Assembly (NCBI GenBank): GCA_015057035.1
Contig: SVFC01000010.1
Coordinates: 1 to 64,000 of the forward strand
Source: Lachnospiraceae bacterium
Lineage (GTDB): Bacteria; Bacillota; Clostridia; Lachnospirales; Lachnospiraceae
Length of the DNA: 64,000 nucleotides
Direction of reading: 5' to 3'
Position numbers and translations under genes: made by a program. Shown one piece after another: positions 31,395-56,442 of this stretch (the first letter of the stretch is position 1; every line of letters starts with the position of its first letter). The notes under the pieces were generated by a model. That model was not told the origin of the DNA. It saw only the letters and a program-made list of their open reading frames with translations, and did not search any database.

Positions 31395-32342
31395 ATGTAT
31401 GATGTAACGGCATTAGGGGAAATCCTAATTGACTTTACGCCTTGCGGAGTGTCGCCAGCGGGACAGAGAGTGTTTGAGCAGAATCCTGGAGGTGCACCAG
31501 CCAATGTGCTGACTGCGTTGAGTAAGTTTGGGAGAAAGACAGCCTTTGTGGGAAAGGTTGGTGCGGACATGCACGGAGAGTTTTTGGTGTCCGTATTAAA
31601 GGAAAACGATATTGCCACAGATGGGGTGATTGTGGATGAAAATGTATTCACAACTCTGGCGTTTGTTGCTTTGTCGGATTCGGGAGAAAGAAGTTTTTCT
31701 TTTGCAAGAAAACCTGGAGCAGATACCTGCCTGACACAGGAAGAACTGCGAGAGGATTTGATTAAGGAGAGCAAGGTGTTTCATATTGGTTCGCTGTCTC
31801 TTACGGCAGAACCTGCAAAGGGAACAACATTCCGCGCGCTGGAAGTGGCGAAGGAAAATGGATGTATCGTATCCTATGATCCTAACTATCGCGCGCCACT
31901 TTGGGATAATGTGAATGCAGCAGTTGAGGGCATGCGTTCTGTATTATCTTATGTGGATGTAATGAAATTATCAGATGAAGAAACGAATCTGCTGACAGAT
32001 AAGTATGAACCAGAAGATGCTGCGAAAGTGCTTTTGGAAAAAGGCGTTAAGATTGTAGCAGTAACTTTGGGAGCTGAAGGTGCACTGGTTTGCACAAGAG
32101 AAGGTTCTGTTGTGGTACCTGGTTATAAAGCAATTCTTGTAGATACCACAGGTGCAGGAGATTCCTTCTGGGGAGGCTTTTTACATAAGTTGTTAGAAAG
32201 TGGAAAACGTCCAGAAGATGTATCTTTAGAAGAGGCGGCAAGTTTTGCAAAATATGGCAATGCTGTAGCTAGCCTTTGCGTAGAGAAACGTGGGGCAATT
32301 CCTGCAATGCCAAGCCTTGAGGATGTGGTAGCAAGGCTCTAA
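31395..32342 (+). CDS. PfkB-family carbohydrate kinase (fructokinase)
   Basis: A 315-residue ribokinase-family enzyme. The N-terminal motif GEILIDFTPCG, the sugar-binding GGAPANVLTALSKFG and the C-terminal DTTGAGDSFWGGFLHKL with catalytic Asp match fructokinases. It would phosphorylate fructose to fructose 6-phosphate. The next gene encodes a D-lyxose/D-mannose-type isomerase, so the pair can turn mannose into fructose 6-phosphate through fructose. ATG 31395 has GAGG 7 nt upstream; an earlier in-frame ATG at 31356 lacks a site. First gene of a three-gene unit ending at 34090. Confidence 0.9.
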   Translation: MYDVTALGEILIDFTPCGVSPAGQRVFEQNPGGAPANVLTALSKFGRKTAFVGKVGADMHGEFLVSVLKENDIATDGVIVDENVFTTLAFVALSDSGERSFSFARKPGADTCLTQEELREDLIKESKVFHIGSLSLTAEPAKGTTFRALEVAKENGCIVSYDPNYRAPLWDNVNAAVEGMRSVLSYVDVMKLSDEETNLLTDKYEPEDAAKVLLEKGVKIVAVTLGAEGALVCTREGSVVVPGYKAILVDTTGAGDSFWGGFLHKLLESGKRPEDVSLEEAASFAKYGNAVASLCVEKRGAIPAMPSLEDVVARL

Positions 32343-32429
32343 CAGGCTAAGGTTAAAAAGACCACTATGTTATAAAAATGTATTATTGAAAAAATAAAAA
32401 ATAGAAAAGAGGAAAAGAGGAGAAATATA

Positions 32430-33119
32430 ATGAAACGTTCAGAAGTAAACAAATATATCAAAGAAATGGAACAGTTAGCAAAGGACAATGGATTTCAGTT
32501 GCCACCATTCTGCAACTGGACACCAGAAGAATGGGCAGACAAAGGCCATGAATATGATGAAATCCGCGACAACATGTTAGGTTGGGATATTACAGACTAC
32601 GGCCTCGGTGATTTTGAAAAGGTTGGCTTTGCATTAATTACATTAAGAAACGGTAATCAGCACAATCCAAAATATAAAAAGGTATATGCTGAAAAGTTAT
32701 TAATGCTCAAGGAAAACCAGCATTCTCCAATGCATTTCCATTGGGTGAAATCAGAAGATATTATTAACCGTGGCGGTGGTACATTAATCATTCACGTATA
32801 CAATGATGACGGAAATGAAGAATTAGATATGGTAAATGATGTGCTTGTAAATATGGATGGACGTTCTTTCTATGTTCCGGCAGGAACTGGCGTAGAATTA
32901 AAACCAGGTGAAAGTATTACATTGTGGCCACATCAGTATCATGACTTTGATGTAAAACCAGGTACAGGAGACGTATTAATCGGTGAAGTATCTATGTGTA
33001 ACGATGACAACACAGATAACCGTTTCAATCCACCTGTAGGACGTTTCCCTTCTATCGAAGAAGATGAAGCTCCATATCGTTTGCTTTGCAACGAATATCC
33101 AGTAGCTAAGGAGAATTAA
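32430..33119 (+). CDS. D-lyxose/D-mannose-type ketol-isomerase (cupin fold)
   Basis: A 229-residue cupin enzyme of the D-lyxose isomerase family. Metal ligands are visible in HFHWVKSEDIINRGGG (two His and a Glu) and in LWPHQYHDF (His). NWTPEEWADKGHEYDEIRDN at the N-terminus is typical. Members interconvert D-lyxose with D-xylulose and D-mannose with D-fructose. Beside a fructokinase and in a locus with an alpha-mannosidase, the mannose-to-fructose reaction fits best. It is preceded by AGGAGA and followed 2 nt later by the DUF4432 gene. Confidence 0.9.
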   Translation: MKRSEVNKYIKEMEQLAKDNGFQLPPFCNWTPEEWADKGHEYDEIRDNMLGWDITDYGLGDFEKVGFALITLRNGNQHNPKYKKVYAEKLLMLKENQHSPMHFHWVKSEDIINRGGGTLIIHVYNDDGNEELDMVNDVLVNMDGRSFYVPAGTGVELKPGESITLWPHQYHDFDVKPGTGDVLIGEVSMCNDDNTDNRFNPPVGRFPSIEEDEAPYRLLCNEYPVAKEN

Positions 33120-33121
33120 TT

Positions 33122-34090
33122 ATGAATAAATACTTGGGACATGACAGCCAGGCATATGGCATTGAGGAACATCGTCTCGTTGGGGGAAAAGGCGACGGCC
33201 TTCGTCTCTTGCAAGTTCGTAACGGAAAAGGATTAGACTTTACCGTATCCTTAGATCGTTGTGCAGATATTTCCCGCCTTTCATATAAAGGAATTAATAT
33301 GGGATATTTTTCTCCATGCGGTTATGTGGCTCCAACTTTTTATGATGATAAAGAAGATGGTTTTTTGAAATCCTTCACTGCGGGATTTTTAACCACCTGT
33401 GGACTTCGCGCGGTTGGTGCGGCCTGTGAAGATGAGGGGGAAAAATTGCCACTTCATGGTACTATCGGAAATACCCCTGCGGAAACATCTTATTGGGAAG
33501 AAAAAGGTGGGAAGTTAATCATTCATGCGGTGATGAAGGATGAGAGAATTTTTTCACATAAGCTGGTATTAAGAAGAGAAATTATCTGTTCACTAGAGAC
33601 AAATGAATTAGAAATTCATGATACAATTGAAAACCGTGGTGATATGGATTCTCCAGCAATGCTGATGTATCACATGAATCTTGGGTATCCGCTCTTAAGT
33701 GAGAATGCAATTCTAAAAGTAAATTCTGACGAGGTTGTTCCAAGAGACCCACGTGCTGCAGAAGATTTGGATACATGGAATCAGATGCTTCCACCACAGA
33801 AACAGTTTGCGGAGCAGTGCTATTTCCATAAGTTTAGTAAAGATGGAGTTGCATTACTGTATAATCCAGATGTGAAGGTTGGGTTGGCAATTCATTTTAA
33901 TCCAAAGAATCTTACTCATTTTACCCAGTGGAAACAGATGGGAGAAAGAGATTATGTGCTAGGGCTTGAGCCAGGTAACTGTCATCCAAATGGTCGTGAT
34001 AAGATGCGTGAGGAAGGAACCCTTACTGTTTTAAAGCCAGGTGAGAGTGTATCCTATGTGGTTAAGGTTCAGATGCTAGATGAGATGTAA
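33122..34090 (+). CDS. DUF4432 family protein (aldose-epimerase-like)
   Basis: A 322-residue beta-sandwich protein of the galactose mutarotase superfamily. Family signs are DFTVSLDRCADISRLSYKGI, the HGTIGNTPAE segment with a catalytic-type His, the LMYHMNLGYPLL segment with a second His, and GLEPGNCHPNG near the end, with a Glu in the expected active-site place. DUF4432 proteins are taken to epimerise or mutarotate sugars or sugar derivatives; specific activity is not established. The gene starts 2 nt after the isomerase stop, so an accessory role in mannose/fructose anomer handling is likely. Confidence 0.85.
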   Translation: MNKYLGHDSQAYGIEEHRLVGGKGDGLRLLQVRNGKGLDFTVSLDRCADISRLSYKGINMGYFSPCGYVAPTFYDDKEDGFLKSFTAGFLTTCGLRAVGAACEDEGEKLPLHGTIGNTPAETSYWEEKGGKLIIHAVMKDERIFSHKLVLRREIICSLETNELEIHDTIENRGDMDSPAMLMYHMNLGYPLLSENAILKVNSDEVVPRDPRAAEDLDTWNQMLPPQKQFAEQCYFHKFSKDGVALLYNPDVKVGLAIHFNPKNLTHFTQWKQMGERDYVLGLEPGNCHPNGRDKMREEGTLTVLKPGESVSYVVKVQMLDEM

Positions 34091-34109
34091 AACTTAATTT
34101 CTAAGAGAA

Positions 34110-34150
34110 AAGTCCTAGAGTTCATTATGCAACTCTAGGACTTCTTGTTT
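34110..34150. terminator. bidirectional terminator between DUF4432 and the AraC gene
   Basis: AAGTCCTAGAGTT (34110-34122) pairs perfectly with AACTCTAGGACTT (34131-34143), with T-rich sequence on both sides. Confidence 0.9.
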
Positions 34151-35034
34151 TATGGTTTCTGATTGTTTTTTCTAAACTTCGAAGGAGAAGTTCCAACAAA
34201 GGTGTTAAACACGCGATTGAACTGGGAGAAACTACTAAAACCACTTAAAAAGGCAATGTCGGTAATTGGTTTATTCGTAGAGATAAGTAACGACTGGGCA
34301 TTTCGAATGCGTGTCAGCTGGATATATTCCGTTAAGGTGAATCCGGTAACTTTCTTGAACTGATGGGACAGGTAATAGTTGCTTACATAGAACTGGTCCG
34401 CGATAGAGTTCAGGGACAGGTCTTCGGTGTAATTGTTGTGAATATAGGAAGTGATACTATATACCTTATTGGTGATGTTGTCAAAGTCTACATTTTCTTG
34501 ATACGAGTTTTGACTCCTATATAAATAAATCAAGCTTAAAAACTCTACAAATTTATTATGAATCGCTAAATCGGTCATTTCGTTTGGTGCTTTAGATAAA
34601 TAATAAATGTCATTTAGTTTTTCTAAAACAATGTTCTTGTATTTCCCCTCAAAACGATATATCGGAACTTCTTTGTTGAAAATGCTTAAGATTTTTTTCA
34701 TGTATCCATCCAGTGGGGATGGCATATTAGGGAACGCAAACTGGATAATGAGTCGTTTGTTTGGCGCGCCTTCCGGATAAGAGGTTCTGTGCAAGAGGGA
34801 AGGACGGATAGCTACGATGTCACAGCAGCGCATATCATGCCAAGCACCATTAATTAAGTGGCCTGCCTGTTCATCCAGAAAAATACACATTTCATAATAC
34901 TGATGGAAATGTTGGAATTCCATGTTGATTTGATAAGAACGTTCGTCCCAGTCGAAGAAATAGAAAAATGGTCCTTCGTATTGATTCACTGTAAAGCGAT
35001 ATTTTTGTTCATAGACAAGGTTGTCAATTAGCAT
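34150..35034 (-). CDS. AraC-family transcriptional regulator
   Basis: A 294-residue regulator. The N-terminal 160 residues form a cupin-type ligand domain (FQHFHQYYEMCIFLDEQAGH). The C-terminal 100 residues hold two helix-turn-helix motifs (LSLNSIADQFYVSNYYLSHQ, KPITDIAFLSGFSSFSQFNR), ending with the usual SPSKFRK. GGAGG precedes the start. It is divergent from the importer operon at 35369 and convergent with the isomerase operon, so it most likely activates the importer/inositol operon when the sugar is present. A possible site, TTGCGAATTTTGC, lies at 35107-35119. Confidence 0.92.
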   Translation of the reverse strand: MLIDNLVYEQKYRFTVNQYEGPFFYFFDWDERSYQINMEFQHFHQYYEMCIFLDEQAGHLINGAWHDMRCCDIVAIRPSLLHRTSYPEGAPNKRLIIQFAFPNMPSPLDGYMKKILSIFNKEVPIYRFEGKYKNIVLEKLNDIYYLSKAPNEMTDLAIHNKFVEFLSLIYLYRSQNSYQENVDFDNITNKVYSITSYIHNNYTEDLSLNSIADQFYVSNYYLSHQFKKVTGFTLTEYIQLTRIRNAQSLLISTNKPITDIAFLSGFSSFSQFNRVFNTFVGTSPSKFRKNNQKP

Positions 35035-35368: not shown

Positions 35369-37378
35369 ATGAAATTGAAAAAACTTGTATCTCTCTTATT
35401 GGCAGGAGTTATGGTTGTTTCTTGCTTAACAGCATGTACACCAACCGCACAGCCTCCAGTATCTGAGAATCCTGGTTCAGAAAAACCAGGTAGCGAAGTG
35501 CCAGAAGTGGAGTGGAAATTAGCTGAATCTCCAGTTCTTGGAGCATTAGTAACAGAAGGAAAACTTCCTGCAGTAGCAGATCGTCTTCCAAAAACAGAAG
35601 ATATTTTTATCTCAAAAGTTGACGCTAAAGGTGATACACTTTCAATCGGTAATTACGGTGGAGACCTTAACGTAATCAGCGGTGGTGGTAGCTGGGATCT
35701 TTCTAGACCAGTTCTTGAAAGTATCATCCGTTACAACACTGACGGATCATATGTTCCAAACGTTATTAAGAGCTTTGAACACAATGATACATATACAGAA
35801 TGGACATTCCACTTAAGAGAAGGAATGAAATGGTCTGATGGTAATGACTTCAATGCAGATGACATTACATTCTGGTATTATATGTGCCACCTCAACAACT
35901 TCGATACAAAGAAGAGCTGGACAGCATTAAAAGACGGCGATGATGCTTGGGCAACACTTGAAAAGGTTGATGAATACACAGTTAAATGGAAATTCAACAA
36001 TCCTAAGTTAGCAGCTGACTTCATCGAAAACGGCGATTTCAAATGGTGCTGGGCTCCTTCTCACTACTTAATCGATATGATTCCTGCAAATGGACATGTT
36101 GAAAACCCATATTGGGAAAGCACAGGACTTTCAGATGAACAGGTACTTATCAATGCTAAAGCAAAAGGTATTGACAAAGCTACTGTAAAAGACCTTGGTA
36201 AAGCAGTTTCTTACTACTTCTGGAATGAAGATGGTATCCCAACTGTTAACTCATATGTATTAAAAGCTGGCAACTCTAAAGATGATCAGGTTTGTACATT
36301 AGAGCGTAACCCATACTACTGGAAAACAGACGCAGCTGGAAATCAGCTTCCATACATTGACAACATCGTATTCAACAAGACATCTGCAGATGGACAGGAT
36401 CAGTTATTATTCCGTTCAGGCAAAATCGATATCATTGGTATCGCAATGCAGGATATTGCAACAACACTTGAAGATATGGGCACTGCAGCAGAACTTCGTA
36501 CATTTGCAAGTTCTAACTGGGGTTCATACCAGATTACATTTAACTACACAAACAAAGATCCAAAATATGCTGAATTATTCAACAACATTAAATTCCGTGA
36601 AGCTATGTCTATCGCAGTAGACCGTGCACAGGTTTCACAGGTGCTTGCAGATGGATTCCTTGATCCAGGTCAGTGCTGTCCAGCAGAAGGTAACTTCGGA
36701 TATGATGCTGATTGGGATAAAAAATGGACAACATATGACGTAGCACGTGCTAAGACACTTTTAGAAGAATGTGGTCTTGTTATGGGCGATGATGGATTCT
36801 ACAACTTCGCAGACGGAACAGACCTCTTGATTCCATTCTATATGTATGTAGAAGCAGGAAATGCAGGTGCTTATCCAGTATTTGAACAGTATTGGGAAGC
36901 AATCGGTATTGACTGTGCTTCAAAAGAATATGAAGTTGCAGCATTCGACGGCGAAATCGACAACAATGACTGGTATGCAATTTTAGGACCACACACATCA
37001 ATCGGTGGACTTTCATTAAGAGACCGTGTTGCTCCATTCGTTCCAATCCAGCAGGCTGCTGAATGGTATGGCGAATTTGGTACATGGTACGGAACAAACG
37101 GCGCTTCAGGTGTAGAACCTACAGGCGATATGGCTAAATTACTTGAAATCTACGAAAAATGGAACTCAACTCCAGATTCAGCTAAGAGAGATGAGTACAC
37201 ATTAGAGATTTACAAAATCCACAAAGATAACATTTGGTCAATTGCTTACTTGCAGGCAGCTGGTTCATACAACTTAATCAGCGCTAAGATTAAGAACTAT
37301 CCAGACAACTTAGTAAGTGCAGACTTATATCAGTACGCAAATATCGTTCATTACGAAACATTATACAAAGTTCAGTAA
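35369..37378 (+). CDS. ABC importer substrate-binding lipoprotein (SBP family 5)
   Basis: A 669-residue lipoprotein with lipobox LTAC near residue 23 and a Pro/Ser/Gly-rich linker. The family 5 (Opp/Dpp-type) fold follows, with typical YVPNVIKSFEHND, TFHLREGMKWSDGNDFNADD and FREAMSIAVDRAQV. Family 5 proteins bind peptides, nickel or oligosaccharides. In this locus, with GH38, GH105 and sugar kinases and no peptidase, an oligosaccharide is most likely. Its length, well above the 520-550 common for peptide binders, fits the larger carbohydrate-binding subgroup. It is followed by an attenuating hairpin and then the permease genes. Confidence 0.92.
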   Translation: MKLKKLVSLLLAGVMVVSCLTACTPTAQPPVSENPGSEKPGSEVPEVEWKLAESPVLGALVTEGKLPAVADRLPKTEDIFISKVDAKGDTLSIGNYGGDLNVISGGGSWDLSRPVLESIIRYNTDGSYVPNVIKSFEHNDTYTEWTFHLREGMKWSDGNDFNADDITFWYYMCHLNNFDTKKSWTALKDGDDAWATLEKVDEYTVKWKFNNPKLAADFIENGDFKWCWAPSHYLIDMIPANGHVENPYWESTGLSDEQVLINAKAKGIDKATVKDLGKAVSYYFWNEDGIPTVNSYVLKAGNSKDDQVCTLERNPYYWKTDAAGNQLPYIDNIVFNKTSADGQDQLLFRSGKIDIIGIAMQDIATTLEDMGTAAELRTFASSNWGSYQITFNYTNKDPKYAELFNNIKFREAMSIAVDRAQVSQVLADGFLDPGQCCPAEGNFGYDADWDKKWTTYDVARAKTLLEECGLVMGDDGFYNFADGTDLLIPFYMYVEAGNAGAYPVFEQYWEAIGIDCASKEYEVAAFDGEIDNNDWYAILGPHTSIGGLSLRDRVAPFVPIQQAAEWYGEFGTWYGTNGASGVEPTGDMAKLLEIYEKWNSTPDSAKRDEYTLEIYKIHKDNIWSIAYLQAAGSYNLISAKIKNYPDNLVSADLYQYANIVHYETLYKVQ

Positions 37379-37414
37379 TTAATTAGGAACCAGTTAATAA
37401 ATAGGTTAGCTATT

Positions 37415-37452: not shown

Positions 37453-37471
37453 TTTAGAAAGGGAATTTCCT

Positions 37472-38536
37472 ATGGAAAATAATAAAAAAAGTATATGGGA
37501 AAAAGTGGTGGATTTCTATCGGAAAGACCTTGTACAGTACATTGTAAAACGTCTTTTGATGTTTATTCCAACCTTGTTTTTGATTTCGATTCTGGCGTTT
37601 TTCGTTATCCAGTTGCCAGAGACAGACTATGTAGACCGTGAGATTGCTAAGCTTCAGATGGAAGGTGAATTCATCGATCAGGAGCAGGCTGCGGCATTGA
37701 GAAGAGAATACGGTCTCGATTTACCAATTCACGAAAGATATATCAAATGGATTAAAGATATTATCTGGACCCCTACTGATTCAGAATATTATCGTATTTA
37801 TGGTTCACACCATAACTGGAAATATTCTTTTGCATATGGTAAAGACGTATGGGACGTAGTAGATGACCGACTTGGTCTCACTATTTTAGTAACAGCGTTG
37901 ATTATGATTTTCCAGTATGCGGTATCTTTACCAATAGCAATTTATGCATCCACACATCAGTATTCCGTTGGTGACTATATTTCATCATTTATCGGGTTCA
38001 TAGGCGCCGCGGTGCCGAACTTTATCTTGGCATTTGTTATTATGTATATATCCTACAAATGGTTTGGGGATGCAAACCTAGGTTTAGATTTTAGTGGCTT
38101 CTTCCCGTTCTTGAAGAGTATGATTATTCCATTCCTTGTTATCGGAACAAGTGGTACCTGTGGAATTATCCGTTCAGTACGTGCGCAGATGCTTGATGAA
38201 GTTTCTAGACAGTATACACTGACCGCGAGAGCAAAAGGTGTATCAGAAAGAAAAATTATTATGAAATACTGCTTCCGTGCAGCAATGAATCCTACAGTAT
38301 CAGGTTTAGGTGGAGTTCTCTCCAGCTTATTCTCAGGATCTACTGTTACTGCTATGGTATTAATGATTGATATTCAGGGACCAGAATTATTAAAGGCTCT
38401 TCAAACAGGTGATATCTATCTGGCAGGTGCGATTGTAATGGTTCAGGCTATCCTGGTTGTTATCGGAATCTTGCTTTCCGATATTGCGCTTGCGTTCTTA
38501 GATCCAAGAATTCGTTATTCAGGAGGTAATCGATAA
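37472..38536 (+). CDS. ABC importer permease (OppB/DppB type)
   Basis: A 354-residue inner-membrane permease with about six helices. The first helix (about 28-50) is followed by a longer external loop than usual. The conserved cytoplasmic loop is RQYTLTARAKGVSERKIIMKY, which contacts the ATPases. The ATG of the next permease overlaps the stop by 1 nt (TAATG). It forms the translocation pore together with the 38536 protein. Confidence 0.93.
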   Translation: MENNKKSIWEKVVDFYRKDLVQYIVKRLLMFIPTLFLISILAFFVIQLPETDYVDREIAKLQMEGEFIDQEQAAALRREYGLDLPIHERYIKWIKDIIWTPTDSEYYRIYGSHHNWKYSFAYGKDVWDVVDDRLGLTILVTALIMIFQYAVSLPIAIYASTHQYSVGDYISSFIGFIGAAVPNFILAFVIMYISYKWFGDANLGLDFSGFFPFLKSMIIPFLVIGTSGTCGIIRSVRAQMLDEVSRQYTLTARAKGVSERKIIMKYCFRAAMNPTVSGLGGVLSSLFSGSTVTAMVLMIDIQGPELLKALQTGDIYLAGAIVMVQAILVVIGILLSDIALAFLDPRIRYSGGNR

Positions 38537-39663
38537 TGAGTTTGTTTAAGAAAAAAGAAAAGTCAAAAGAAGATTATTATCTTGCCTCCCAGTGGACCTT
38601 AATGGGCAGAAAGTTAAAGAAACACAAATTAGCCCAGTTTTCAATCGCAATTTTGATTGTGTTATATCTCTCAGCATTCTTTGCGGAATTCCTTGCACCA
38701 TATGGTCTGGAAGAATTTGATGGTCTATATAAAAACTCTGGAAGTACCAAGATTCATGTTATGCATGAAGGAAAATTTGTTGGACCATTTGTGTACAAAT
38801 TACAAAAACATGTTGATAAGACAAACTTTAAGGTAACAATTACAGAGGATACATCGGAATATTATCCAATTAAATTCTTTGTAAAAGGTACAGAATACAA
38901 GTTTTTGGGACTTTTCCCTTCTGACTTACATCTCTTTGGCTTAGGTGAAGGTAGTGAAGGTGGTACAGGTGCGAAAATCATGCTGTTCGGAGCAGATGGT
39001 CTTGGCCGAGATATTTTCTCACGTGTGTTATACGGTGGAAGAATTTCTTTAACAATTCCTTTTGCCAGTGCCGCAATCAGTTTGTTCCTGGGAATTACCA
39101 TTGGTGCGATTTCTGGTTATTTTGGTGGCGTTTTGGATATGGTTATTCAGCGAATCATCGAAGTTATCGGTGCGGTACCACAGATTCCATTATGGATGGC
39201 ATTATCTGCAGCAATTCCTCCAGGAATTTCCAGTGTTGAAATGTATTTTTACATGACACTTATCTTGTCATTTATTGGATGGACAGGTATGGCTCGAATC
39301 GTACGTGGCAAATTCCTTTCTCTGAAGAATGAAGACTATGTTATGTCTGCAAGATTGTCAGGTGTATCTACTTGGAATATTATCTGGAAACATTTAGTTC
39401 CAGGCTTTTTAAGCTACTTAATCGTATCTGTAACACTTGGTATTCCAGGTTCCATCGTTGGTGAAACATCTATGTCTTACTTAGGACTTGGTATCAAGAC
39501 TCCTGCAACAAGCTGGGGCGTATTGCTTCAGGAAGCAAGTAATATTACAGATATTGCAGCTTACCCACATAAGCTTATTCCAATTATTTTCGTAACAGTA
39601 GCCGTGTTGGCATTTAACTTCTTGGGCGATGGTCTTCGTGACGCAGCTGACCCATACAAATAG
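38536..39663 (+). CDS. ABC importer permease (OppC/DppC type)
   Basis: A 375-residue permease. The N-terminal cytoplasmic tail and first helix (about 35-55) match the OppC_N domain. A roughly 110-residue external loop follows before the core of five helices. GADGLGRDIFSRVLYGGRISL and the ATPase-contact loop NEDYVMSARLSGVSTWNIIW are typical of DppC/OppC. It partners with the preceding OppB-type protein. Confidence 0.93.
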   Translation: MSLFKKKEKSKEDYYLASQWTLMGRKLKKHKLAQFSIAILIVLYLSAFFAEFLAPYGLEEFDGLYKNSGSTKIHVMHEGKFVGPFVYKLQKHVDKTNFKVTITEDTSEYYPIKFFVKGTEYKFLGLFPSDLHLFGLGEGSEGGTGAKIMLFGADGLGRDIFSRVLYGGRISLTIPFASAAISLFLGITIGAISGYFGGVLDMVIQRIIEVIGAVPQIPLWMALSAAIPPGISSVEMYFYMTLILSFIGWTGMARIVRGKFLSLKNEDYVMSARLSGVSTWNIIWKHLVPGFLSYLIVSVTLGIPGSIVGETSMSYLGLGIKTPATSWGVLLQEASNITDIAAYPHKLIPIIFVTVAVLAFNFLGDGLRDAADPYK

Positions 39664-39680
39664 AAACGGGAGGTAAAAAA

Positions 39681-40751
39681 ATGAAAAATGATAATATTCT
39701 TGAAGTAAAAGACCTCCATGTGGATATTAAAATGCCAGAAGGTATCTTAACAGCCGTACGTGGCGTGGACTTTGAAATGAAAAAGGGTGAAACCCTTGGA
39801 CTTGTAGGTGAGTCTGGATGTGGTAAATCCCTTACTTGTAAAGCAATTCTTGGAATTAATGAAAAGAAATGTGTTTCATCTGGACAGATTATGTTTGATT
39901 CAGATGGACACGGTGAAGTAGAACTTATCGAACTTGCCAACATGAAGAAAACAGATAAAATCCGTTCTATTCGTGGTAAAGAGATTTCAATGATTTTCCA
40001 GGAACCAATGGTTGCTTTCTCACCAATGTACACTATTGGTAACCAGATTAATGAAGCGACATTATTACATATTACAAAAGATAAAAAGAAAGCAAAAGAG
40101 ATTTCTATGGATGTAATGCGTAAGGTTGGTATTGCCAACGTTGAAAAGCGTTACAATCAGTATCCTCATGAATTCTCAGGTGGTATGTTACAGAGAGCAT
40201 TGATTGCTATGGCGCTTGTATGTAATCCAAAACTTTTGATTGCAGACGAACCTACTACTGCTCTTGACGTTACTATTCAGGCGCAGATTCTGGAACTTAT
40301 GAAAGAACTCCAGAAAGACTTTGGTACCTCAATTCTTTTCATTACACATGACCTTGGTGTTGTTGCTAAGATGTGTGACAGAGTTGCGGTTATGTACCTT
40401 GGTAAAATCGTAGAAAGTGCTGATGCAGAAGAAATCTATGCTAATCCACAGCATCCATATACCAGAGGTTTGATTGGATCAGTACATAAGATTGGTGGCA
40501 AGAAAGAGGACAGACTCTTCTCTATCGAAGGAACGGTACCTCTTGCTATGAATCTTCCAGAAGCTTGTGGTTTCTATGATCGTTGTGATGCACGAATTGA
40601 AGGTCTTTGTGATAAGGCAGAGCCAGAATTAATCGAAGTGGCACCAGGCCATAAGATTGCATGCTTTAACTGTCCACATGCAGCATGTCAGGAACATAGA
40701 GCTGCAGTTGAAGCTCGTTTGGCAGCAAAGGAGGTAAGCGAGAATGAATAA
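39681..40751 (+). CDS. ABC importer ATP-binding protein (OppD type)
   Basis: A 356-residue ATPase. Walker A GESGCGKS (about 44-51), signature FSGGMLQRALIAMAL, Walker B LLIADEPTTALD, and the C-terminal oligopeptide/dipeptide transporter domain, in which three of four Cys residues of the usual iron-sulfur-type motif are seen (CGFYDRCDAR, CFNCPHAAC). It energises uptake with the OppF-type subunit, whose gene overlaps by 8 nt. Confidence 0.94.
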   Translation: MKNDNILEVKDLHVDIKMPEGILTAVRGVDFEMKKGETLGLVGESGCGKSLTCKAILGINEKKCVSSGQIMFDSDGHGEVELIELANMKKTDKIRSIRGKEISMIFQEPMVAFSPMYTIGNQINEATLLHITKDKKKAKEISMDVMRKVGIANVEKRYNQYPHEFSGGMLQRALIAMALVCNPKLLIADEPTTALDVTIQAQILELMKELQKDFGTSILFITHDLGVVAKMCDRVAVMYLGKIVESADAEEIYANPQHPYTRGLIGSVHKIGGKKEDRLFSIEGTVPLAMNLPEACGFYDRCDARIEGLCDKAEPELIEVAPGHKIACFNCPHAACQEHRAAVEARLAAKEVSENE

Positions 40752-46581: not shown

Positions 46582-46621
46582 GAATTTTACGATAAGTTAG
46601 GAAGGAAACAGGTAAGGAAGT

Positions 46622-48313: not shown

Positions 48314-48377
48314 GTCGAAAGAATAGAAATAGAATGTGCCATATCGGATGTGCGCAGGATATATAGCAGGGGGGAAT

Positions 48378-49529
48378 ATGGGAAGAGAATTTATAATGCC
48401 TGGTAAGATTATCAGCGGCAGCGGTGCTTTAGAGCAGGCAGAAGGTTACTTCAAACAGCTTGGTAAAAAAGCCTTGATTGTGACTGATGCGGTAATGATT
48501 AAGCTGGGAAACTTAGACCAGGTTACTAAGGTGTTAGATAAAGCAGAAGTTGCTTATAGTGTTTATGATGGTATTGGCGGAGAGCCAACCGACGTGATGA
48601 TTGAAAAAGGTTTAGAACTTTATAAAGAAGGGTGTGATTTCTTAATCGCATTAGGCGGCGGAAGTCCAATTGACTCTATGAAAGCCATTGCTGCCTTGGC
48701 AGTGAATGGTGGCAAGATGAGTGATTATATGGGAAAAGAAATTGCTGGAGCCATTCCACCTATGGTAGCGATTCCAACCACAGCAGGAACCGGCTCTGAA
48801 GCAACTAAGTTTACCATTATCACAGACACAGAAAAAGACGTAAAGATGTTATTAAAGGGTGATGCATTGATGCCAAACTTGGCAATTATTGATCCACAGT
48901 TTACCATCACTGCACCTCCAGCAATTACAGCGGCTACAGGATTGGATGCGTTAACGCATGCCATAGAAGCATATACATCCGTAAAGGCACAGCCAATGAC
49001 AGATGTGTTTGCAGTTTCAGCTGTAAAGAGAATTTTTAAATATTTACCAGTGGCTTTCCATGAAGGAAGCAATGTGGAAGCTAGAGAAGAAATGTCACTG
49101 GCAGCGTTAGAAGCGGGGGTTGCTTTTAACAATGCTTCAGTTACATTAGTGCATGGAATGAGTAGACCAATTGGTGCTCTTTTCCACGTACCACACGGAA
49201 TCTCAAACGCTATGCTTTTGAAGGAATGCCTGACCTTTGCACTGGACGGTGCGTATGAACGATTTGCTGATTTGGGGGATGCAATCGGTGTGACGGTACC
49301 AGGACAAGGTGTAGAGGAAAAAGCAAAGGCCTTTTTAGGAGAAGTCGAAAATATCTGTAAGGAACTTGAGATTCCAAGCTTGGAAAAATATGGAATTGAT
49401 AGAACTGAGTTTTTTGCACGTATGGATAAAATGGCAGATGATGCACTGATTAGTGGCAGCCCTGCCAACACTCGTAAAGCAGTAACAAAAGCAGATATTT
49501 TAGATATTTATACAAAACTTTGGGACTAA
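48378..49529 (+). CDS. iron-containing alcohol dehydrogenase
   Basis: A 383-residue group III dehydrogenase. The NAD-binding loop is ALGGGSPIDSMKAIAAL, followed by PTTAGTGSE. Metal ligands lie in LDALTHAIEAY (Asp, His) and LVHGMSRPIGALFHVPHGI (two His). Family members reduce aldehydes or oxidise small alcohols, such as lactaldehyde or glycerol. In this operon it could reduce an aldehyde formed from the uronate or inositol branch; the exact substrate is unknown. ATG 48378 is preferred because GGGGGG lies just upstream; the frame is open to 48336. Confidence 0.9.
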   Translation: MGREFIMPGKIISGSGALEQAEGYFKQLGKKALIVTDAVMIKLGNLDQVTKVLDKAEVAYSVYDGIGGEPTDVMIEKGLELYKEGCDFLIALGGGSPIDSMKAIAALAVNGGKMSDYMGKEIAGAIPPMVAIPTTAGTGSEATKFTIITDTEKDVKMLLKGDALMPNLAIIDPQFTITAPPAITAATGLDALTHAIEAYTSVKAQPMTDVFAVSAVKRIFKYLPVAFHEGSNVEAREEMSLAALEAGVAFNNASVTLVHGMSRPIGALFHVPHGISNAMLLKECLTFALDGAYERFADLGDAIGVTVPGQGVEEKAKAFLGEVENICKELEIPSLEKYGIDRTEFFARMDKMADDALISGSPANTRKAVTKADILDIYTKLWD

Positions 49530-49549
49530 TAAAAGGGGGAATAAGGGAA

Positions 49550-50575
49550 ATGAAATACATCACATTTGATGAGACAAGACCTTTTGACTTAGTGCTATTA
49601 GGTAGAGTGGCAGTGGACTTTAACCCAGTAGATTACTTTCAGCCATTAGAGGAATGTACCACATTTAAAAAGTACGTAGGTGGTTCACCAGCTAACATTG
49701 CAGTTGGTGTTGCCCGCCACGGATTAAAAGCAGGATTTTTTGCAAGAGTGTCAGACGATCAGTTGGGGGACTTCGTTACACACTTCTTCGAAAAAGAAGG
49801 CATTGATACTTCAAGAATCCGTCGTTGCGAGCACGGAGAAAAAATCGGGTTAACCTTCACAGAGATTTTATCCCGTGACGAATCAAGTATTCTTATGTAT
49901 CGTAACTGCATTGCAGACTTACAGCTTTGCCCTGCGGATATTGATGAAGAATACATCAAAAATACAAAAGCAATTCTTATTTCAGGAACATCACTGGCAG
50001 CAAGCCCATCCAGAGAGGCTGCTCTTAAGGCAGTGATGCTGGCAAAGAGAAATAATACAAGAATTATCTTTGATATTGACTATCGTCCATACAACTGGGC
50101 ATCCGAAGATGAAATCTCTATCTACTATTCTATGGTGGCAAGAGAGGCGGACATTATCATGGGTTCCCGTGAAGAGTTTGACCTAACTGAGAAACTTATC
50201 GAAGAAGGTCGTGATGATTGGCAGACAGCTTCCTATTGGCATAGACGCAATGCGAAGATTGTTATTATCAAACATGGTAAGAAGGGCTCTACTGCATATA
50301 CCAGTGATGGAAAATCCTATACTGTAAAACCATTCCCAGTGGATGCTTTAAAATCCTTTGGCGGTGGCGATGGCTATGGCGCAGGATTCTTATATGGCCT
50401 GTACAATGGCTGGGATATGTATGACTGCTTAGAGTTCGGCTGTGCAGAAGCATCTATGATGGTTGCAGCACATTCCTGCTCAACAGACCTTCCAAATCCA
50501 CAGCAGGTACATGATTTTATCAAAATGAGCAAGGAAAAATACGGCGAGACCGTATGTTGTGATAGAAACGAATAA
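49550..50575 (+). CDS. iolC: 5-dehydro-2-deoxygluconokinase
   Basis: A 341-residue PfkB-family kinase closely matching IolC. The start [20 protein letters not shown], sugar-site [30 protein letters not shown] and the catalytic [16 protein letters not shown] are diagnostic. It phosphorylates 5-dehydro-2-deoxy-D-gluconate in myo-inositol breakdown. It starts the run of five iol genes and lies 20 nt after the dehydrogenase stop. Confidence 0.94.
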
Positions 50576-50595
50576 TTTTTAGGGGGAGTAAACAA

Positions 50596-52518
50596 ATGGG
50601 AAATACTAGAATGACTGTCGGTCAGGCAATCGTAAAATTTCTCGATAACCAGTACATTGAACTGGATGGGGTGGAAAACAAATTTGTAGATGGTATTTTT
50701 ACTATCTTTGGACACGGAATCGTAGTTGGATTAGGTCAGGCACTGGATGAAAATCCAGGCGGACTTCGTGTATATCAGGGCCGTAACGAGCAGGGTATGG
50801 CTCATGTGGCAACAGGCTATGCAAGACAGAATAACAGAAGAAAAATTATTGCTTGTGCATCTTCCATTGGACCAGGCGCAGCAAATATGGTAACTGCAGC
50901 TGCAACAGCAACAGTAAATCGTATTCCATTACTGTTATTCCCTGGAGATACCTTTGCAGTAAGACAGCCAGACCCAGTATTACAGCAGATTGAACAGGAA
51001 GATTCACCATCCATTACAACCAATGATGCTTATCGAGCAGTTTGTAAATTCTGGGATAGAATCACCAGACCAGAACAGTTGATGGGAACTTTAACTCAGG
51101 CAATGCGCATTTTAACAGATCCAGCAAAAACTGGTGCAGTTTGTATCGCATTATCTCAGGATGTAGAAGGAGAATCTTATGATTATCCAGACTACTTCTT
51201 TGAAAAGAAAGTACATAGAATCCGTCGAGTTCTTCCAGTAAAAGAAGACTTGGCAGATTTGGTAAAACTGATTTCGGAAAGCAAGAAACCAATGATTATT
51301 TGTGGTGGCGGTGTGCGTTATTCCGAAGCAGGTGCTACATTAGAAAAATTCTGTGAGCGCTTCCACATTCCATTTGCAGAAACACAGGCTGGTAAGAGTG
51401 CTTGTAGTTCCTCACATCCTTATAACCTTGGTGGTGTAGGTGTAACTGGTAATTTATCAGCGAACACCATTGCAAGAGATGCTGACCTTATTATTTCGGT
51501 GGGAAGCAGATTGTCTGACTTCACCACTGGTTCTAAGGAACTTTATGGAAAAACTAAGATGGTTGCCATCAATGTATCTATGTTTGATGCAGGCAAAATG
51601 GATGCTACAGTTGTGATTGGTGATGCAAAAGCAACCTTAGAACTGGCTTCCGAAGAACTTGCAAAAATCTGTTACGTCAGTGGTTATGACAAGGAAATCG
51701 AAATGGCAAAACGCGCCTGGGACGAAGAATATGCCCGCCTTGGAATCTACAGTTATGGTGATGCATTCCGTCCGATTATTCAGGCTAGAAATCCAAAGAC
51801 AATCGAAGAATTCGTAGAAGTAACTGGTGGAACCATTACTCAGACTTCTGCCATTGCTACGATTCGAGATATGATTGATAAAGATGCCATTATCGTTGGA
51901 GCATCTGGAAGTCTTCCAGGAGACTTACAGAGAATGTGGACCACAGACCAGAAGGATGCATACCAGATGGAATATGGATATTCTTGTATGGGATATGAAA
52001 TCGCTGCAGCTCTTGGTGCAAAAATTGCTTGCCCAGAGCAGGAAGTATATTCTATGTGTGGCGACGGTGCGTTCCTTATGATGCACAGCGAATTGGTAAC
52101 ATCTCTTCAGGAAAAGAAGAAAATCAATGTTCTTTTATTTGACAACTGCGGATTTGGATGTATCAACAATCTTCAGATGAGCAATGGTATTGGAAATCTT
52201 GCAACAGAGTTCCGCTATCGCGATGAAGAAGGTGGCTTAAATGGTGATTTGATGCCAATCAGCTATGCTACAGTTGCTTCGGGCTATGGTGTAAAAACAT
52301 ATACAGCAACAACTCTTACTGAGTTAAAAGAAGCATTGATTGATGCAAAGAAACAGACGGTTTCTACATTAATCGACATTAAAGTATTGCCAAAGACTAT
52401 GACAGATGGTTACGTTTCCTGGTGGAATGTAGGATTGGCAAGCACAACAAGTAACGAAGCGCAGCAGGACGCTTACGATAAATTAATTGAAAATCGCAAA
52501 AATGCAAGACAGTACTAA
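50596..52518 (+). CDS. iolD: 3D-(3,5/4)-trihydroxycyclohexane-1,2-dione acylhydrolase
   Basis: A 640-residue thiamine-diphosphate enzyme. The N-terminal part has [12 protein letters not shown] and the catalytic Glu region [18 protein letters not shown]. The C-terminal TPP motif runs from [20 protein letters not shown] to NNLQMSNG. It opens the inosose-derived diketone ring to 5-deoxyglucuronate. It is preceded by AGGGGGAG and follows iolC by 20 nt. Confidence 0.95.
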
Positions 52519-52534
52519 TTGGAGGGGAAAAGAA

Positions 52535-53434
52535 ATGTTTGCAGGAAAAGAAGTAAAATTAGGAATTGCACCAATCGCTTGGACAAACGATGATTTACCA
52601 GAACTTGGTGGAGAAAACACATTTGAACAGTGCGTTAGCGAAATGGCACTGGCAGGATTTACAGGATCAGAAGTTGGTAACAAATATCCAAAGGATCCAG
52701 CTGTTTTAAAACCAGCATTAGAACTTCGTGGAATCGAAATCTGTAACGCTTGGTTCTCAACATTCCTTATCAGCAAACCATATGAAGAAACAGAAGTAGA
52801 ATTTGAAAAACACGTAGCATTTTTAGCTGCTATGGGTGCGAAAGTGGTTGGTGTTTCTGAACAGAGTTATAGTACACAGGGAATCCAGACACAGCCTGTA
52901 TTTGAAGGAAAATATGAAATGAACGACGAAGAATGGAAACTTCTTTGTGATGGCTTAAACCGTCTTGGAAAACTTTCTCTTGAAAAATACGGCGTAGCTC
53001 TTACATTCCATCACCATATGGGAACTGTTGTACAGAGTGCTGCAGAAACTGACAAACTTATGGAAGGTACAGACCCAGCATATGTAAGTCTTCTCTTCGA
53101 TAGTGGACATTTTGCATACTGTGGAGAAGACCCAGTAGAAATGGTAACTCGTCACGTAAAACGTATCAAACACGTTCACTTAAAAGACATCCGTCCAGAC
53201 GTTGTTGCAAGAGTAAAAGCAGAAGGTCTTAGCTTCTTGGAAGGTGTTCGTCAGGGTGCGTTCACAATTCCTGGAGATGGCTGTGTACAGTTTGCACCAA
53301 TCTTCAAGGTATTGGCAGAAAACGGATACGAAGGCTATATGGTAGTGGAAGCGGAACAGGATCCAGCAAAGGCTAATCCATTAGAATACGCTATCCGCGC
53401 GAGAAAATTTATCGCAGAAAATACAGGACTTTAA
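52535..53434 (+). CDS. iolE: inosose dehydratase
   Basis: A 299-residue TIM-barrel enzyme of the AP-endonuclease 2 superfamily, matching Iol[18 protein letters not shown] at the start, [27 protein letters not shown] and KHVHLKDIR with metal-binding His and Asp. It dehydrates scyllo-inosose to the trihydroxycyclohexane-dione used by IolD. ATG 52535 sits behind GGAGGGG. Confidence 0.95.
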
Positions 53435-53485
53435 AATTTTTAGATTTATATAAGGAAAGCCAAGAGGGCTTAGGAGGAAAACAGA

Positions 53486-54502
53486 ATGATTACAGTTGGC
53501 GTTATCGGAGCAGGAAGAATTGGTAAAGTACATACCGAAAGTATTTGCAATTACGTTCGTAATGCAAAAATCAAAACAATCGCAGATCCATATATGAATG
53601 AAGAAACAGAAAAATGGGTTGCTAGCATGGGTGTACCTAATACAACAAAGGATTACCATGACATTTTAAATGATCCAGAAATTGATGCAGTACTTATCTG
53701 CTCATCAACAAATACACATTCTATCATTTCATTGGAAGCAATCGCAGCAGGAAAACACATCTTCTGCGAAAAACCAATTGACCATGATTTAGACAAGATT
53801 AAACAGGTTATGGACGCATTAAAAGAGCATCCAGAATTAAAATACCAGGTTGGTTTCAACCGTAGATTTGACCACAATTTCGCAGCAGTTCGCAAAGCTG
53901 TAGTGGATGGTAAGATTGGAGAAACACATATCATCAAAGTTACATCAAGAGATCCAGAACCACCAAGTGCTGAATACGCAGCAGTTTCAGGCGGTATGTT
54001 CCTTGATATGACCATTCATGATTTTGATATGGTTCGTTTCCTTGCAGGATGCGACGCAGAAGAAATCTATGTTCAGTCAGCAGTTTTAGTTGATCCAGCA
54101 ATTGGTGAAGCAGGCGATGTTGATACAGCAGTTATCACAATCAAGATGGAAAACGGCGCAATCGCAGTTATCGACAACTCAAGACGTGCAGCATATGGCT
54201 ATGATCAGAGAGCAGAAGTATTCGGTTCTAAGGGTATGGCAGCTACAACAAATGATACACAGTCAAGCTGCGTACTTTCTAATGCAGAAGGCGTAACAGG
54301 CGAAAAACCATTATACTTCTTCTTAGAGAGATATATGCAGTCATTTGCAACAGAAGTAAAAGACTTTATCAACGCTATCGAAAACAACACAGATACCCCT
54401 GTAGGTGTTATCGATGGTTTGAAACCAGTACTTATGGGAATCGCGGCTAAGAAATCTGTAGAAGAACACAGACCAGTTAAGATTTCTGAGATTAAGTACT
54501 AA
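53486..54502 (+). CDS. iolG: inositol 2-dehydrogenase
   Basis: A 338-residue Gfo/Idh/MocA oxidoreductase. The NAD motif is GVIGAGRIGKVH (4-15), then CEKPIDHDL (catalytic Lys) and GGMFLDMTIHDFDMVRFLAG with the active-site Asp and His. It oxidises myo-inositol to scyllo-inosose with NAD, the first step of the pathway. In the iol gene run this is clearly IolG rather than a generic family member. Confidence 0.93.
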   Translation: MITVGVIGAGRIGKVHTESICNYVRNAKIKTIADPYMNEETEKWVASMGVPNTTKDYHDILNDPEIDAVLICSSTNTHSIISLEAIAAGKHIFCEKPIDHDLDKIKQVMDALKEHPELKYQVGFNRRFDHNFAAVRKAVVDGKIGETHIIKVTSRDPEPPSAEYAAVSGGMFLDMTIHDFDMVRFLAGCDAEEIYVQSAVLVDPAIGEAGDVDTAVITIKMENGAIAVIDNSRRAAYGYDQRAEVFGSKGMAATTNDTQSSCVLSNAEGVTGEKPLYFFLERYMQSFATEVKDFINAIENNTDTPVGVIDGLKPVLMGIAAKKSVEEHRPVKISEIKY

Positions 54503-54524
54503 TAAAATTTTATTATCCTTAAGA

Positions 54525-54567
54525 CACTTACAAGCAACTGCATATTACGTGCGGTTGCTTGTAGTGG
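54525..54567 (+). repeat. hairpin between iolG and iolB
   Basis: TACAAGCAACTGCA pairs with TGCGGTTGCTTGTA around TATTACG, extended by CACT/AGTG. No T-run follows, so it is more likely an mRNA processing or stability hairpin than a terminator. Confidence 0.55.
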
Positions 54568-54644
54568 TATATAATATTTTATGAAAGATTTGAGCACGAG
54601 TAAGTACAGGAGTGTAAAATGTAAATAAGGCGAGGGCAGAAAAA

Positions 54645-55415
54645 ATGAGCAAACAGTTTAGTTATCCAGAATATAATGAAGAAGGTATCAAGGTTCTTTC
54701 CACCGCAGGTGATGCAGAAAATGATATGATGATGAACATCACCGTATATCATATGAAAGCCGGCGAAGAGAGAACGTTTGTATATCCATCCGAAGAAATG
54801 GCGGTTTTATTAGTCTTAGGAGAGATTACATATAAATGGAACGACCATATGGAAAGCGGGAAGAGAGACAGCTTCATTGAAGAAGGGCCATATTGTCTTC
54901 ATGTAAGCCGTGGTGTTGAAGTTACCGTAAACGCATTGGCAGACAGTGAAGTGCTTGTACAGTGCACAGAAAACGACAAAGACTTTGGACAGATTTTCTA
55001 CAGACCAGAAGATTGCCGTGATGATATTTTTGGTGCGGATATGTTTGATAACAAAATGAAGAGAACAGTGCGTACTGTTTTTGATTACAGTAACGCACCA
55101 TATTCCAATATGGTAAATGGCGAAGTAATCAATCATCAGGGTGGATGGTCCAGCTACACACCACATCATCACCCACAGCCAGAAGTATATTATTACCGTT
55201 ATGAGAGACCAGAAGGTTTTGGGGCTTGCTTTATTGGGGATGATGCGTATAAAATTATGGATGGAAGTGCTGCAGCAATTCCACCTGGAAAAACACATCC
55301 ACAGGTAACTGCACCAGCATTTCCAATGTACTACTGCTGGATGATTCGTCACTTGGAAGGCAATCCTTGGACGGACCGAGTGGTAGACCCAAGATATACA
55401 TGGATTGGAGCATGA
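54645..55415 (+). CDS. iolB: 5-deoxy-glucuronate isomerase
   Basis: A 256-residue bicupin of the IolB/KduI superfamily. Metal-binding His residues are in YTPHHHPQPEVYYYRYERPEG, with a further Glu and His in the second half (PPGKTHPQVTAPAFPMYYCW). IolB turns 5-deoxy-glucuronate into 5-dehydro-2-deoxygluconate, the substrate of IolC. Because KduI, the isomerase for 5-keto-4-deoxyuronate, belongs to the same superfamily, dual use with the GH105 product is conceivable but unproven. Confidence 0.93.
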   Translation: MSKQFSYPEYNEEGIKVLSTAGDAENDMMMNITVYHMKAGEERTFVYPSEEMAVLLVLGEITYKWNDHMESGKRDSFIEEGPYCLHVSRGVEVTVNALADSEVLVQCTENDKDFGQIFYRPEDCRDDIFGADMFDNKMKRTVRTVFDYSNAPYSNMVNGEVINHQGGWSSYTPHHHPQPEVYYYRYERPEGFGACFIGDDAYKIMDGSAAAIPPGKTHPQVTAPAFPMYYCWMIRHLEGNPWTDRVVDPRYTWIGA

Positions 55416-55419
55416 TTTA

Positions 55420-56442
55420 ATGGAAACTAAAAAATATGCATTTGGAGTAGATATTGGAGGAACCACATGCAAAATAGGTTTTTTTGATACTACGGGTGTA
55501 TTATTAGACAAATGGGAAATTCATACAGATACATCTAACGCAGGTGAAGGAATCCTGGAAGATGTAGCAGATTCTATCCGCAGAAAGCTGCAGGCGGTTT
55601 ATGAAGCGGAAGAAAGAGAAGCGTCCCCTGAGACGGGCCGGGAGTGTGTTGCGAAAAATTTTCCAAGGGATTTGATGTCAGAGGTGCAGGGAGTTGGTGT
55701 AGGTGTACCAGGTCCAGTTACAGATTTTCGTGTGGTGCATGGTTGTGAAAACCTAGGCTGGGGAACGGTAGATGTGGCCTCTAAACTGGAAGGATTATTG
55801 GAAATTCCCGTCAAAGTAGAAAATGATGCCAACATGGCAGTCCTTGGAGAAATGTACAAAGGAGGCGGCCGTGGAAGTAAGAATCTGATACTTGTCACTT
55901 TAGGCACGGGCGTAGGTTCTGGTATTGTTTGTGGTGGAAATATCATTACTGGCCATGATGGAGCAGCTGGCGAAATCGGTCATATGGTTGTGGATATGGA
56001 AGAAACAGTACAGTGTAGTTGTGGAAAATACGGCTGTCTGGAACAGTATGCATCTGCAACAGGAATTGTTCGTCTGGCAAAGACAAAGTTTGGACTGAAG
56101 TCGGTTATTCCTGGGGAAGAATTGACTGCAAAGCAGATCTTTGACAGAGCCAAGGGAATTTATGGAACGACCGCAAGCGAGGCGGATACAGATGCGCTTG
56201 CAGTTGTGGAGCATATCGGTAAGATTCTTGGTATCGCTCTAGCAAATGTGGCATGTGTCATTAATCCAGAAGTTATCGTCATTGGTGGCGGTGTTTCCAA
56301 AGCAGGAAGTATCTTGACTGAAACCGTACAGAAATATTTTGTTCCAAATGCATTTGGTGAATGCAGTCGTGCAAAGTTTGCATTAGCGGAACTTGGCAAT
56401 GATGCAGGAATTTGGGGTTGTTTGAAATTACTGCTTAAATAA
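55420..56442 (+). CDS. ROK-family sugar kinase
   Basis: A 340-residue kinase. The ATP motif is DIGGTTCKIGFFD (about 12-24), the sugar-binding catalytic Asp lies in VENDANMAVLGE, and the ROK zinc site is CSCGKYGCLEQYAS. No DNA-binding domain is present, so it is an enzyme, most likely gluco- or related hexokinase. It starts 4 nt after iolB with GGAG inside the iolB end, as the last gene of the importer/inositol operon. It could phosphorylate a hexose released from the imported glycan. Confidence 0.92.
   Translation: METKKYAFGVDIGGTTCKIGFFDTTGVLLDKWEIHTDTSNAGEGILEDVADSIRRKLQAVYEAEEREASPETGRECVAKNFPRDLMSEVQGVGVGVPGPVTDFRVVHGCENLGWGTVDVASKLEGLLEIPVKVENDANMAVLGEMYKGGGRGSKNLILVTLGTGVGSGIVCGGNIITGHDGAAGEIGHMVVDMEETVQCSCGKYGCLEQYASATGIVRLAKTKFGLKSVIPGEELTAKQIFDRAKGIYGTTASEADTDALAVVEHIGKILGIALANVACVINPEVIVIGGGVSKAGSILTETVQKYFVPNAFGECSRAKFALAELGNDAGIWGCLKLLLK

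Follow-up and report, generated by a model that had tools for sequence, protein, structure and literature searches.

The stretch analysed here, called the window, covers the first 64 kb (64,000 nucleotides) of contig SVFC01000010.1 of a Lachnospiraceae bacterium of the gut (assembly GCA_015057035.1), the 37th contig of a 2.4 Mb genome that is 84.7% complete, and its subject is a run of 15 genes (35369-56442) predicted to import and dismantle an inositol-containing glycan. Given that all 15 genes lie on the forward strand with intergenic gaps of -32 to 142 bases in the list of open reading frames, the run is operon-like. It opens with a solute-binding lipoprotein and OppBCDF, continues with a HAD-GH105 fusion, the GH38 alpha-mannosidase, a toroid protein referred to as TOR and an iron alcohol dehydrogenase, and ends with IolC, IolD, IolE, IolG, IolB and a ROK kinase (Table 1); it is preceded by a divergent AraC gene (34150) and by a kinase-isomerase-DUF4432 trio (31356-34090). 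An earlier note on this DNA had placed the importer, GH38, HAD-GH105, the toroid protein, five iol genes and the ROK kinase on one strand with an isomerase and a fructokinase upstream, and open reading frames together with Pfam and NCBIfam searches confirm this inventory; the iron alcohol dehydrogenase inside the run (48336-49529) was missing from it.

Table 1. Genes of the run and of its upstream flank, in window positions, with the match or model behind each assignment.
Feature	Position	Strand	Basis
PfkB sugar kinase, predicted fructokinase (branch from mannose through fructose to fructose 6-phosphate)	31356..32342	+	PF00294, 216 bits
D-lyxose/D-mannose isomerase (LyxI) family	32430..33119	+	PF07385, 337 bits
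DUF4432, aldose-epimerase-like	33122..34090	+	PF14486, 319 bits
AraC-type regulator, predicted regulator of the system	34150..35034	-	PF12833
Solute-binding lipoprotein of the importer, SBP family 5	35369..37378	+	PF00496, 168 bits; hydrophobic N-terminus
OppB-type permease	37472..38536	+	PF00528
OppC-type permease	38536..39663	+	PF00528, PF12911
OppD-type ATPase	39681..40751	+	PF00005, PF08352
OppF-type ATPase	40744..41757	+	PF00005, PF08352
HAD domain (residues about 1-170) joined to GH105 (about 207-530), with a predicted role in releasing unsaturated uronate from inositol	41750..43381	+	PF07470, 304 bits
GH38 alpha-mannosidase, predicted cytosolic	43423..46581	+	PF01074, 227 bits (N-terminal domain), and three further GH38-family domains
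TOR, predicted cytosolic uronate lyase, alpha toroid and beta sandwich, 563 residues	46622..48313	+	Fold of structure model
Iron alcohol dehydrogenase, predicted malonate-semialdehyde reductase (to 3-hydroxypropionate)	48336..49529	+	PF00465, 172 bits
IolC	49520..50575	+	TIGR04382, 393 (cut-off 300)
IolD	50596..52518	+	TIGR04377, 898 (cut-off 715)
IolE	52487..53434	+	TIGR04379, 407 (cut-off 290)
IolG	53486..54502	+	TIGR04380, 462 (cut-off 355)
IolB, divergent	54645..55415	+	PF04962, 173 bits; TIGR04378 just 85 (cut-off 205)
ROK sugar kinase	55405..56442	+	PF00480, 206 bits; TIGR00744, 263 (cut-off 260)

TOR matched no Pfam or NCBIfam family, and the evidence for its function comes from its structure model, which has a predicted local distance difference test score (pLDDT) of 86. 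Foldseek returned uronate lyases at all of ranks 1 to 48 (PL33 and PL17, together with PL8 and PL12), and the model aligns to PL17 and PL33 across the whole chain, toroid and beta sandwich included. An Asn-His pair and a Tyr fill active-site roles in such lyases; Asn168, His169 and Tyr217 of TOR are invariant in 13 of 13 aligned sequences, and a weak hhalign match to heparinase II/III (probability 3.6, E 0.012) sets Asn168-His169 on the NNH motif and Tyr217 about one place off. From its modelled fold TOR is predicted to be a cytosolic uronate lyase, and the match over the full length renders a coupled step of lyase and GH105 coherent. In the GH105 domain, an alignment with YteR (1nc5) finds Asp143 and His132 kept, both of them catalytic in YteR, with Asp143 as its acid/base. 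The nearest structures are 3pmm, 3qwt and 4xuv, the first two of which carry weak or conflicting assignments only in the available text of a structural-classification paper (PMC5980557). The N-terminal, middle and C-terminal domains of GH38 all exceed their gathering scores, and since the N-termini of GH38, HAD-GH105 and TOR show no strong hydrophobicity by hydropathy, cleavage of the glycan would be cytosolic.

Being without a named family, TOR was chosen as the bait for comparisons with other genomes. It occurs in 15 of 250 genomes of the same family, the window's genome counted, and in the neighbourhoods of the 14 relatives (40 kb for nine, shorter at contig ends for G173, G199, G132, G144 and G051) many share GH105, AraC (39-65% identity to the window's), GH38, ROK and an importer around it. 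The iol genes adjoin TOR in the window, G039 and G207. IolD was found in 34 of the 250 genomes and in seven of the 15 TOR carriers (Fisher p 0.0014; 0.0048 when the window's genome is excluded); in the remaining four of those seven, TOR and IolD lie on different contigs. A wider set comprised the 80 best-scoring loci of 465 TOR relatives, drawn from Acetatifactor, Butyrivibrio, Eisenbergiella, Oscillospiraceae, Treponema, Fusibacter and others, with flanks of at most 10 kb on either side and components called by tblastn at bit thresholds of the authors' choosing. Because these are the best 80 of 465 and half span less than 19 kb, the linkage counts are lower bounds biased towards close relatives. 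GH38 is present in 52 of the 80, GH105 in 51, HAD in 37, ROK in 31, AraC in 30, OppC in 28 and SBP5 in 26; among the 40 loci for which 19 kb or more of sequence was covered, GH105 occurs in 33 and GH38 in 31. At least two iol genes are found in 26 loci, and any of IolC, IolD, IolE and IolG in 28. The joining of iol genes to GH38 or GH105, whose absence from relatives the earlier note took as fatal to its proposal, is seen in 22 of the 26 iol-linked loci (20 with GH38, 15 with GH105).

The arrangement of these genes varies. The order TOR, iron alcohol dehydrogenase (FeADH), then IolC-D-E-G-B is shared by the window and L046; others are TOR-U239-C-B-D-E-G-FeADH (L050, L053, L055; U239 is described below), TOR-C-D-B-FeADH-G-E (L071), TOR-C-D-B-E-G-FeADH (L078, L080, L083), FeADH-C-D-E-G-B-GH38-TOR (L105, L110, L111) and TOR-GH2-E-B-D (L104). 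A GH2 beta-galactosidase adjoins TOR in L093, L104, L110 and L111, that is, in 4/26 iol-linked loci against 0/52 without iol genes. On a TOR tree of 85 rows (seven of the 80 TORs were dropped as too short or broken, three of them iol-linked, L061, L107 and L122, and 11 TORs from the sampled genomes and the window's were added), the iol label, carried by 25 rows, requires 12 changes, at least 10 of them on well-supported branches, against 21.8 in shuffles, a count that missing flanks inflate.

Outside the family, TOR was found in 10 of 398 genomes sampled across the phylum, and four of the seven neighbourhoods read (G000, G207, G271, G467, G602, G623 and G354; the other three genomes are G331, G315 and G582) contain iol genes. 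Two of these, G271 and G467, are 6-7 Mb genomes of another family, and each holds a 20-25 kb cluster with GH105, IolG, IolC, an IolA-type dehydrogenase (608 and 611 bits against a cut-off of 448.5), IolD, IolE, a sugar ABC importer, a TIM-barrel protein, U239 and a TOR of about 25% identity. At the head of each cluster, on the opposite strand, stands an AraC gene that shares 49-50% identity with that of the window; GH38 occurs in G467 only, and IolB is recognised in G271 (339 bits against 205). The same linkage of GH105, iol genes and TOR thus extends to a second family, once with GH38, and because both clusters keep it the association of TOR with iol genes has outlived deep divergence and a switch of importer type. 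The TIM-barrel protein, an AP_endonuc_2 member as tested in G271, may process a released sugar; in genomes from other families, AP_endonuc_2 genes are found close to an importer, U239 and TOR (L170 7543-8493, L171 10669-11616). Given that the same content recurs in other genomes, the gene set of the window is beyond chance.

In the inositol branch, IolC, IolD, IolE and IolG all score above their curated cut-offs, and the divergent IolB is supported by its place in the iol run and by its presence in 25 of 26 iol-linked loci. No iolA (methylmalonate-semialdehyde dehydrogenase) was found among the genes of the window run, the one part of the genome searched for it, and no iolJ was recognised there. 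The iron alcohol dehydrogenase lies near TOR in 19 of 26 iol-linked loci against two of 52 without iol genes (tblastn), and in G271 and G467 its place in the iol run is occupied by the IolA-type gene; as the enzyme tracks iol and is replaced in this way, gene context supports a role as an anaerobic sink for malonate semialdehyde. For uronate, the genome encodes elsewhere KduI (437 bits against 250), KDPG aldolase (274 against 156), UxaC (631 against 387) and UxuA (411 against 200), as well as a PfkB protein of the KDG-kinase type whose best matches fall under cut-off. At L130 8713-10308 of the window genome, a KduI gene is followed by an NF006753 gene that resembles RpiB by eye, and genes of binding-protein and transport type lie nearby.

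A glycan of inositol, uronate and mannose is quite probably the substrate, and the core idea of the earlier note, a single system that frees mannose, a uronate and inositol, holds up along with its gene set. On balance it appears likely, more specifically, that the locus takes up the inositol-glycan head of plant glycosyl inositol phosphoryl ceramides (GIPCs) and breaks it down by a lyase route. The linkages of this head are Man/GlcN(Ac)-alpha1,4-GlcA-alpha1,2-Ins, that is, mannose or (N-acetyl)glucosamine on glucuronate on inositol. Addition of glucuronate to inositol phosphorylceramide is reported to be plant-specific, and the sugar that follows to be mannose in Arabidopsis and glucosamine or N-acetylglucosamine in rice and others (PMC9113257). 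Plant tissue is likewise described as accumulating free hexose-uronate-inositol, with or without phosphate, by the action of phospholipase C and perhaps D (PMC11496612); a substrate in soluble form is therefore available, and phosphate is not required. In the proposed sequence, phospholipases would free soluble inositol glycans from GIPC; the Opp-type importer would take up hexose-glucuronate-inositol and longer forms; GH38 would trim alpha-mannose in the cytosol; TOR would act by beta-elimination on the linkage that joins the hexose to O4 of glucuronate; and GH105 would remove the resulting unsaturated uronate from inositol. IolG, IolE, IolD, IolB and IolC would then break down inositol, with the iron alcohol dehydrogenase turning malonate semialdehyde into 3-hydroxypropionate, mannose would pass to the upstream isomerase and fructokinase, and the uronate to KduI, KDG kinase and KDPG aldolase.

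The genes that adjoin TOR in relatives bear on this proposal. A mannose isomerase does so in five of the 80 loci, four of them iol-linked, and in a single locus (L101) a kinase that is a 72% homologue of the window's PfkB, the isomerase, HAD-GH105 and TOR are contiguous. NagB (305 bits against 237) is found in eight loci and NagA (281 and 291 against 226) in five, 12 loci together; in Butyrivibrio L078, NagA opens a run in one direction, AraC apart, of NagA-U239-GH38-CehA-GH105-ROK-TOR-iol-FeADH-SBP5. Since mannose isomerase, NagA and NagB all adjoin TOR, some relatives hold catabolic genes for both of the sugars borne by GIPC glucuronate. A CehA/McbA-type PHP metallohydrolase (NF038032, 148 bits against 80; L079 5037-6758) stands by TOR and GH105 in 23 of the 80 loci, many of them Butyrivibrio, and is a possible phosphoesterase of the system. 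Nep1-like proteins (NLPs), which bind GIPC heads, provide a further connection, in that a small protein family, U239, present in 26 of 80 TOR loci (for example L047 11665-12336, L078 1180-1860 and L170 8493-9179), has the NLP fold and aligns on its metal/sugar-site motif, the NLP heptapeptide being kept only in part. No Pfam family matched U239 (NPP1 reached just E 0.17, in one of 22), and none of 26 rows has a strongly hydrophobic N-terminus (maximum 1.55 by hydropathy against 2.67 for the lipoprotein). In G315, G582 and G623 the genes for U239 and TOR are distant from each other or sit on separate contigs, and G463 carries U239 but no TOR. The GIPC target suggested by the earlier note has therefore gained from the lyase fold of TOR, from the NagA/NagB and mannose-isomerase neighbours and from U239, although the substrate itself is still something we infer.

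Several observations weigh against the GIPC reading. The top lyase in a PDB profile search with TOR came at only E 0.28, the weak heparinase II/III alignment is the sole sequence match of TOR to a known lyase family in the Pfam, NCBIfam and profile comparisons, and the toroid by itself is closer to epimerases and hydrolases. In the GH105 domain, Asn takes the place of YteR Asp88, as in 3pmm, 3qwt and 4xuv and in each of the 11 GH105 rows that were aligned for the window and the family sample, and NCBIfam labels the subfamily BglB beta-galactosidase (444 bits against a cut-off of 420), so the earlier, plain claim that this GH105 handles unsaturated uronates is not supported as it was put. HAD phosphatases follow the consensus DxDx(T/V) with S/T and acidic motifs; the window domain has DSGDT as motif I, and six of six copies have Gly for the +2 acid/base Asp, Ala in motif II and Asn in motif IV; because these usual motifs are lacking, the phosphatase role assigned to it is doubtful and the domain is not counted as one. 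HAD is a separate gene near TOR in G242, G132 and G130. No dedicated aldolase for 2-deoxy-5-keto-gluconate 6-phosphate was found in the genome (84.7% complete), the one class II aldolase seen passing the fructose-bisphosphate aldolase cut-off, and no U239 gene was found in the same incomplete genome. Eight of the 15 TOR genomes of the family sample gave no match to IolD at the threshold applied, 54 of the 80 loci have fewer than two iol genes in the sequence covered (half of the loci being under 19 kb), and in 11 of the 12 loci with NagA or NagB no iol gene falls within reach. Further, a lyase would itself free the first mannose, which leaves GH38 for longer heads.

These gaps in linkage invite the explanation that the operon serves two diets, TOR, GH105 and GH38 acting on an inositol-free glucuronate-mannose glycan, such as the glucuronomannan of plant gums or xanthan-like side chains, and the iol genes on free inositol of the same plant food. 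It would account for the 52 of 80 loci without IolC, IolD, IolE or IolG in reach, 34 of which have GH105 and 30 GH38 (Fusibacter L118 for example), and the structures that TOR matches in fold include a xanthan lyase (PL8). It is nonetheless unlikely: the two sets have been joined repeatedly, in varied orders and in two bacterial families, which a shared diet alone hardly explains, the run has no inositol transporter of its own that a Pfam scan recognised, and relatives carry the NLP-fold neighbour. GIPC heads might instead be degraded hydrolytically, with GH38 taking mannose first and GH105 or TOR serving as an alpha-glucuronidase on glucuronate-inositol, so that no unsaturated uronate arises, but this is decidedly improbable in view of the two-domain fold of TOR, which matches lyases over the whole chain, and of the KduI in the genome. 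Least probable is the glycan of glycosylphosphatidylinositol (GPI) anchors or phosphatidylinositol mannosides (alpha-mannose, glucosamine, inositol, phosphate), with which GH38, NagB and the iol genes are all compatible, yet which contains no uronate for the two most constant partners, the lyase-fold protein and GH105, and whose GPI glucosamine is free. NagA beside TOR (5/80) indicates N-acetylglucosamine, named for GIPC (PMC9113257), rather than GPI's free glucosamine.

Set beside known systems, the run resembles the myo-inositol iol operon in grouping IolG, IolE, IolD, IolB and IolC, and differs in having no iolA or recognised iolJ and in adding the iron alcohol dehydrogenase, Opp-type importer, GH38, GH105 and TOR. 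With the lyase and unsaturated-uronyl hydrolase systems for xanthan, hyaluronan and alginate (PL8, PL33 and PL17 with GH88/GH105) it shares a two-domain lyase-like fold adjoining GH105, and GH38 acts in xanthan side-chain systems; here, however, TOR has no Pfam or NCBIfam family and is predicted cytosolic, GH105 is without Asp88, and there is linkage to inositol genes. U239 shares with Nep1-like proteins the fold and the motif alignment, but has no signal peptide by hydropathy, only a partial heptapeptide, a catabolic gene context and no copy found in the window genome. The fungal and plant enzymes BcGIPC-PLC1, NPC4 and GIPC-PLD act on the same lipid and are described as yielding the soluble inositol glycans that the locus would consume (PMC11496612), whereas they cut lipid from head and the locus would take that head apart to sugars and inositol. 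Mitsuokella jalaludinii is reported to make 3-hydroxypropionate from phytate and inositol with inositol utilisation genes and a reductase, but its inositol comes from phytate and its reductase is a 2-hydroxy-3-oxopropionate reductase, not an iron alcohol dehydrogenase (PMC7618129).

Among the flanking genes, the PfkB kinase has fructokinase as its top NCBIfam model (219 bits against a cut-off of 450) and an in-frame ATG at 31395, the start used in the earlier note; LyxI scores 259 bits with NF051472, under its cut-off of 350, and no DUF4432 homologue was found by tblastn in the 80 TOR loci. Upstream of the kinase (28666-31231) lie a GH43-type arabinofuranosidase-like gene (NF052546, 196 bits against 500) and a lipoprotein-like gene of 510 residues; pentoses are described on higher-series inositol glycans (PMC11496612). 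A GDPD-family phosphodiesterase and an MFS transporter are encoded further upstream on the reverse strand (26261-28379), and a second Gfo/Idh/MocA oxidoreductase (100 bits against the IolG cut-off of 355) directly follows the run (56749-57876).

Glycan utilisation loci are a known kind; the substrate class and the two protein families were found undescribed in the literature searched, where, among the titles and abstract openings of the matches listed, no bacterial pathway for GIPC heads appeared. GIPCs have been called the major sphingolipids on earth and a considerable share of plant and fungal lipids (PMC7570276). If the proposal is true, it would account for the fate of plant GIPC carbon and inositol in herbivore guts, add a lyase family, predict 3-hydroxypropionate from plant lipids, and place the NLP fold in a bacterial, catabolic context. 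It is possible, if held only tentatively and as somewhat short of an even chance, that the pathway is widespread in gut Clostridia and in another family of their phylum, Treponema having related core clusters, and that it employs a new family of uronate lyases in the cytosol, often with an intracellular NLP-fold protein that binds or acts on the GIPC head. The NLPs that kill plants would then have a common origin with catabolic proteins directed at the very molecule they target.

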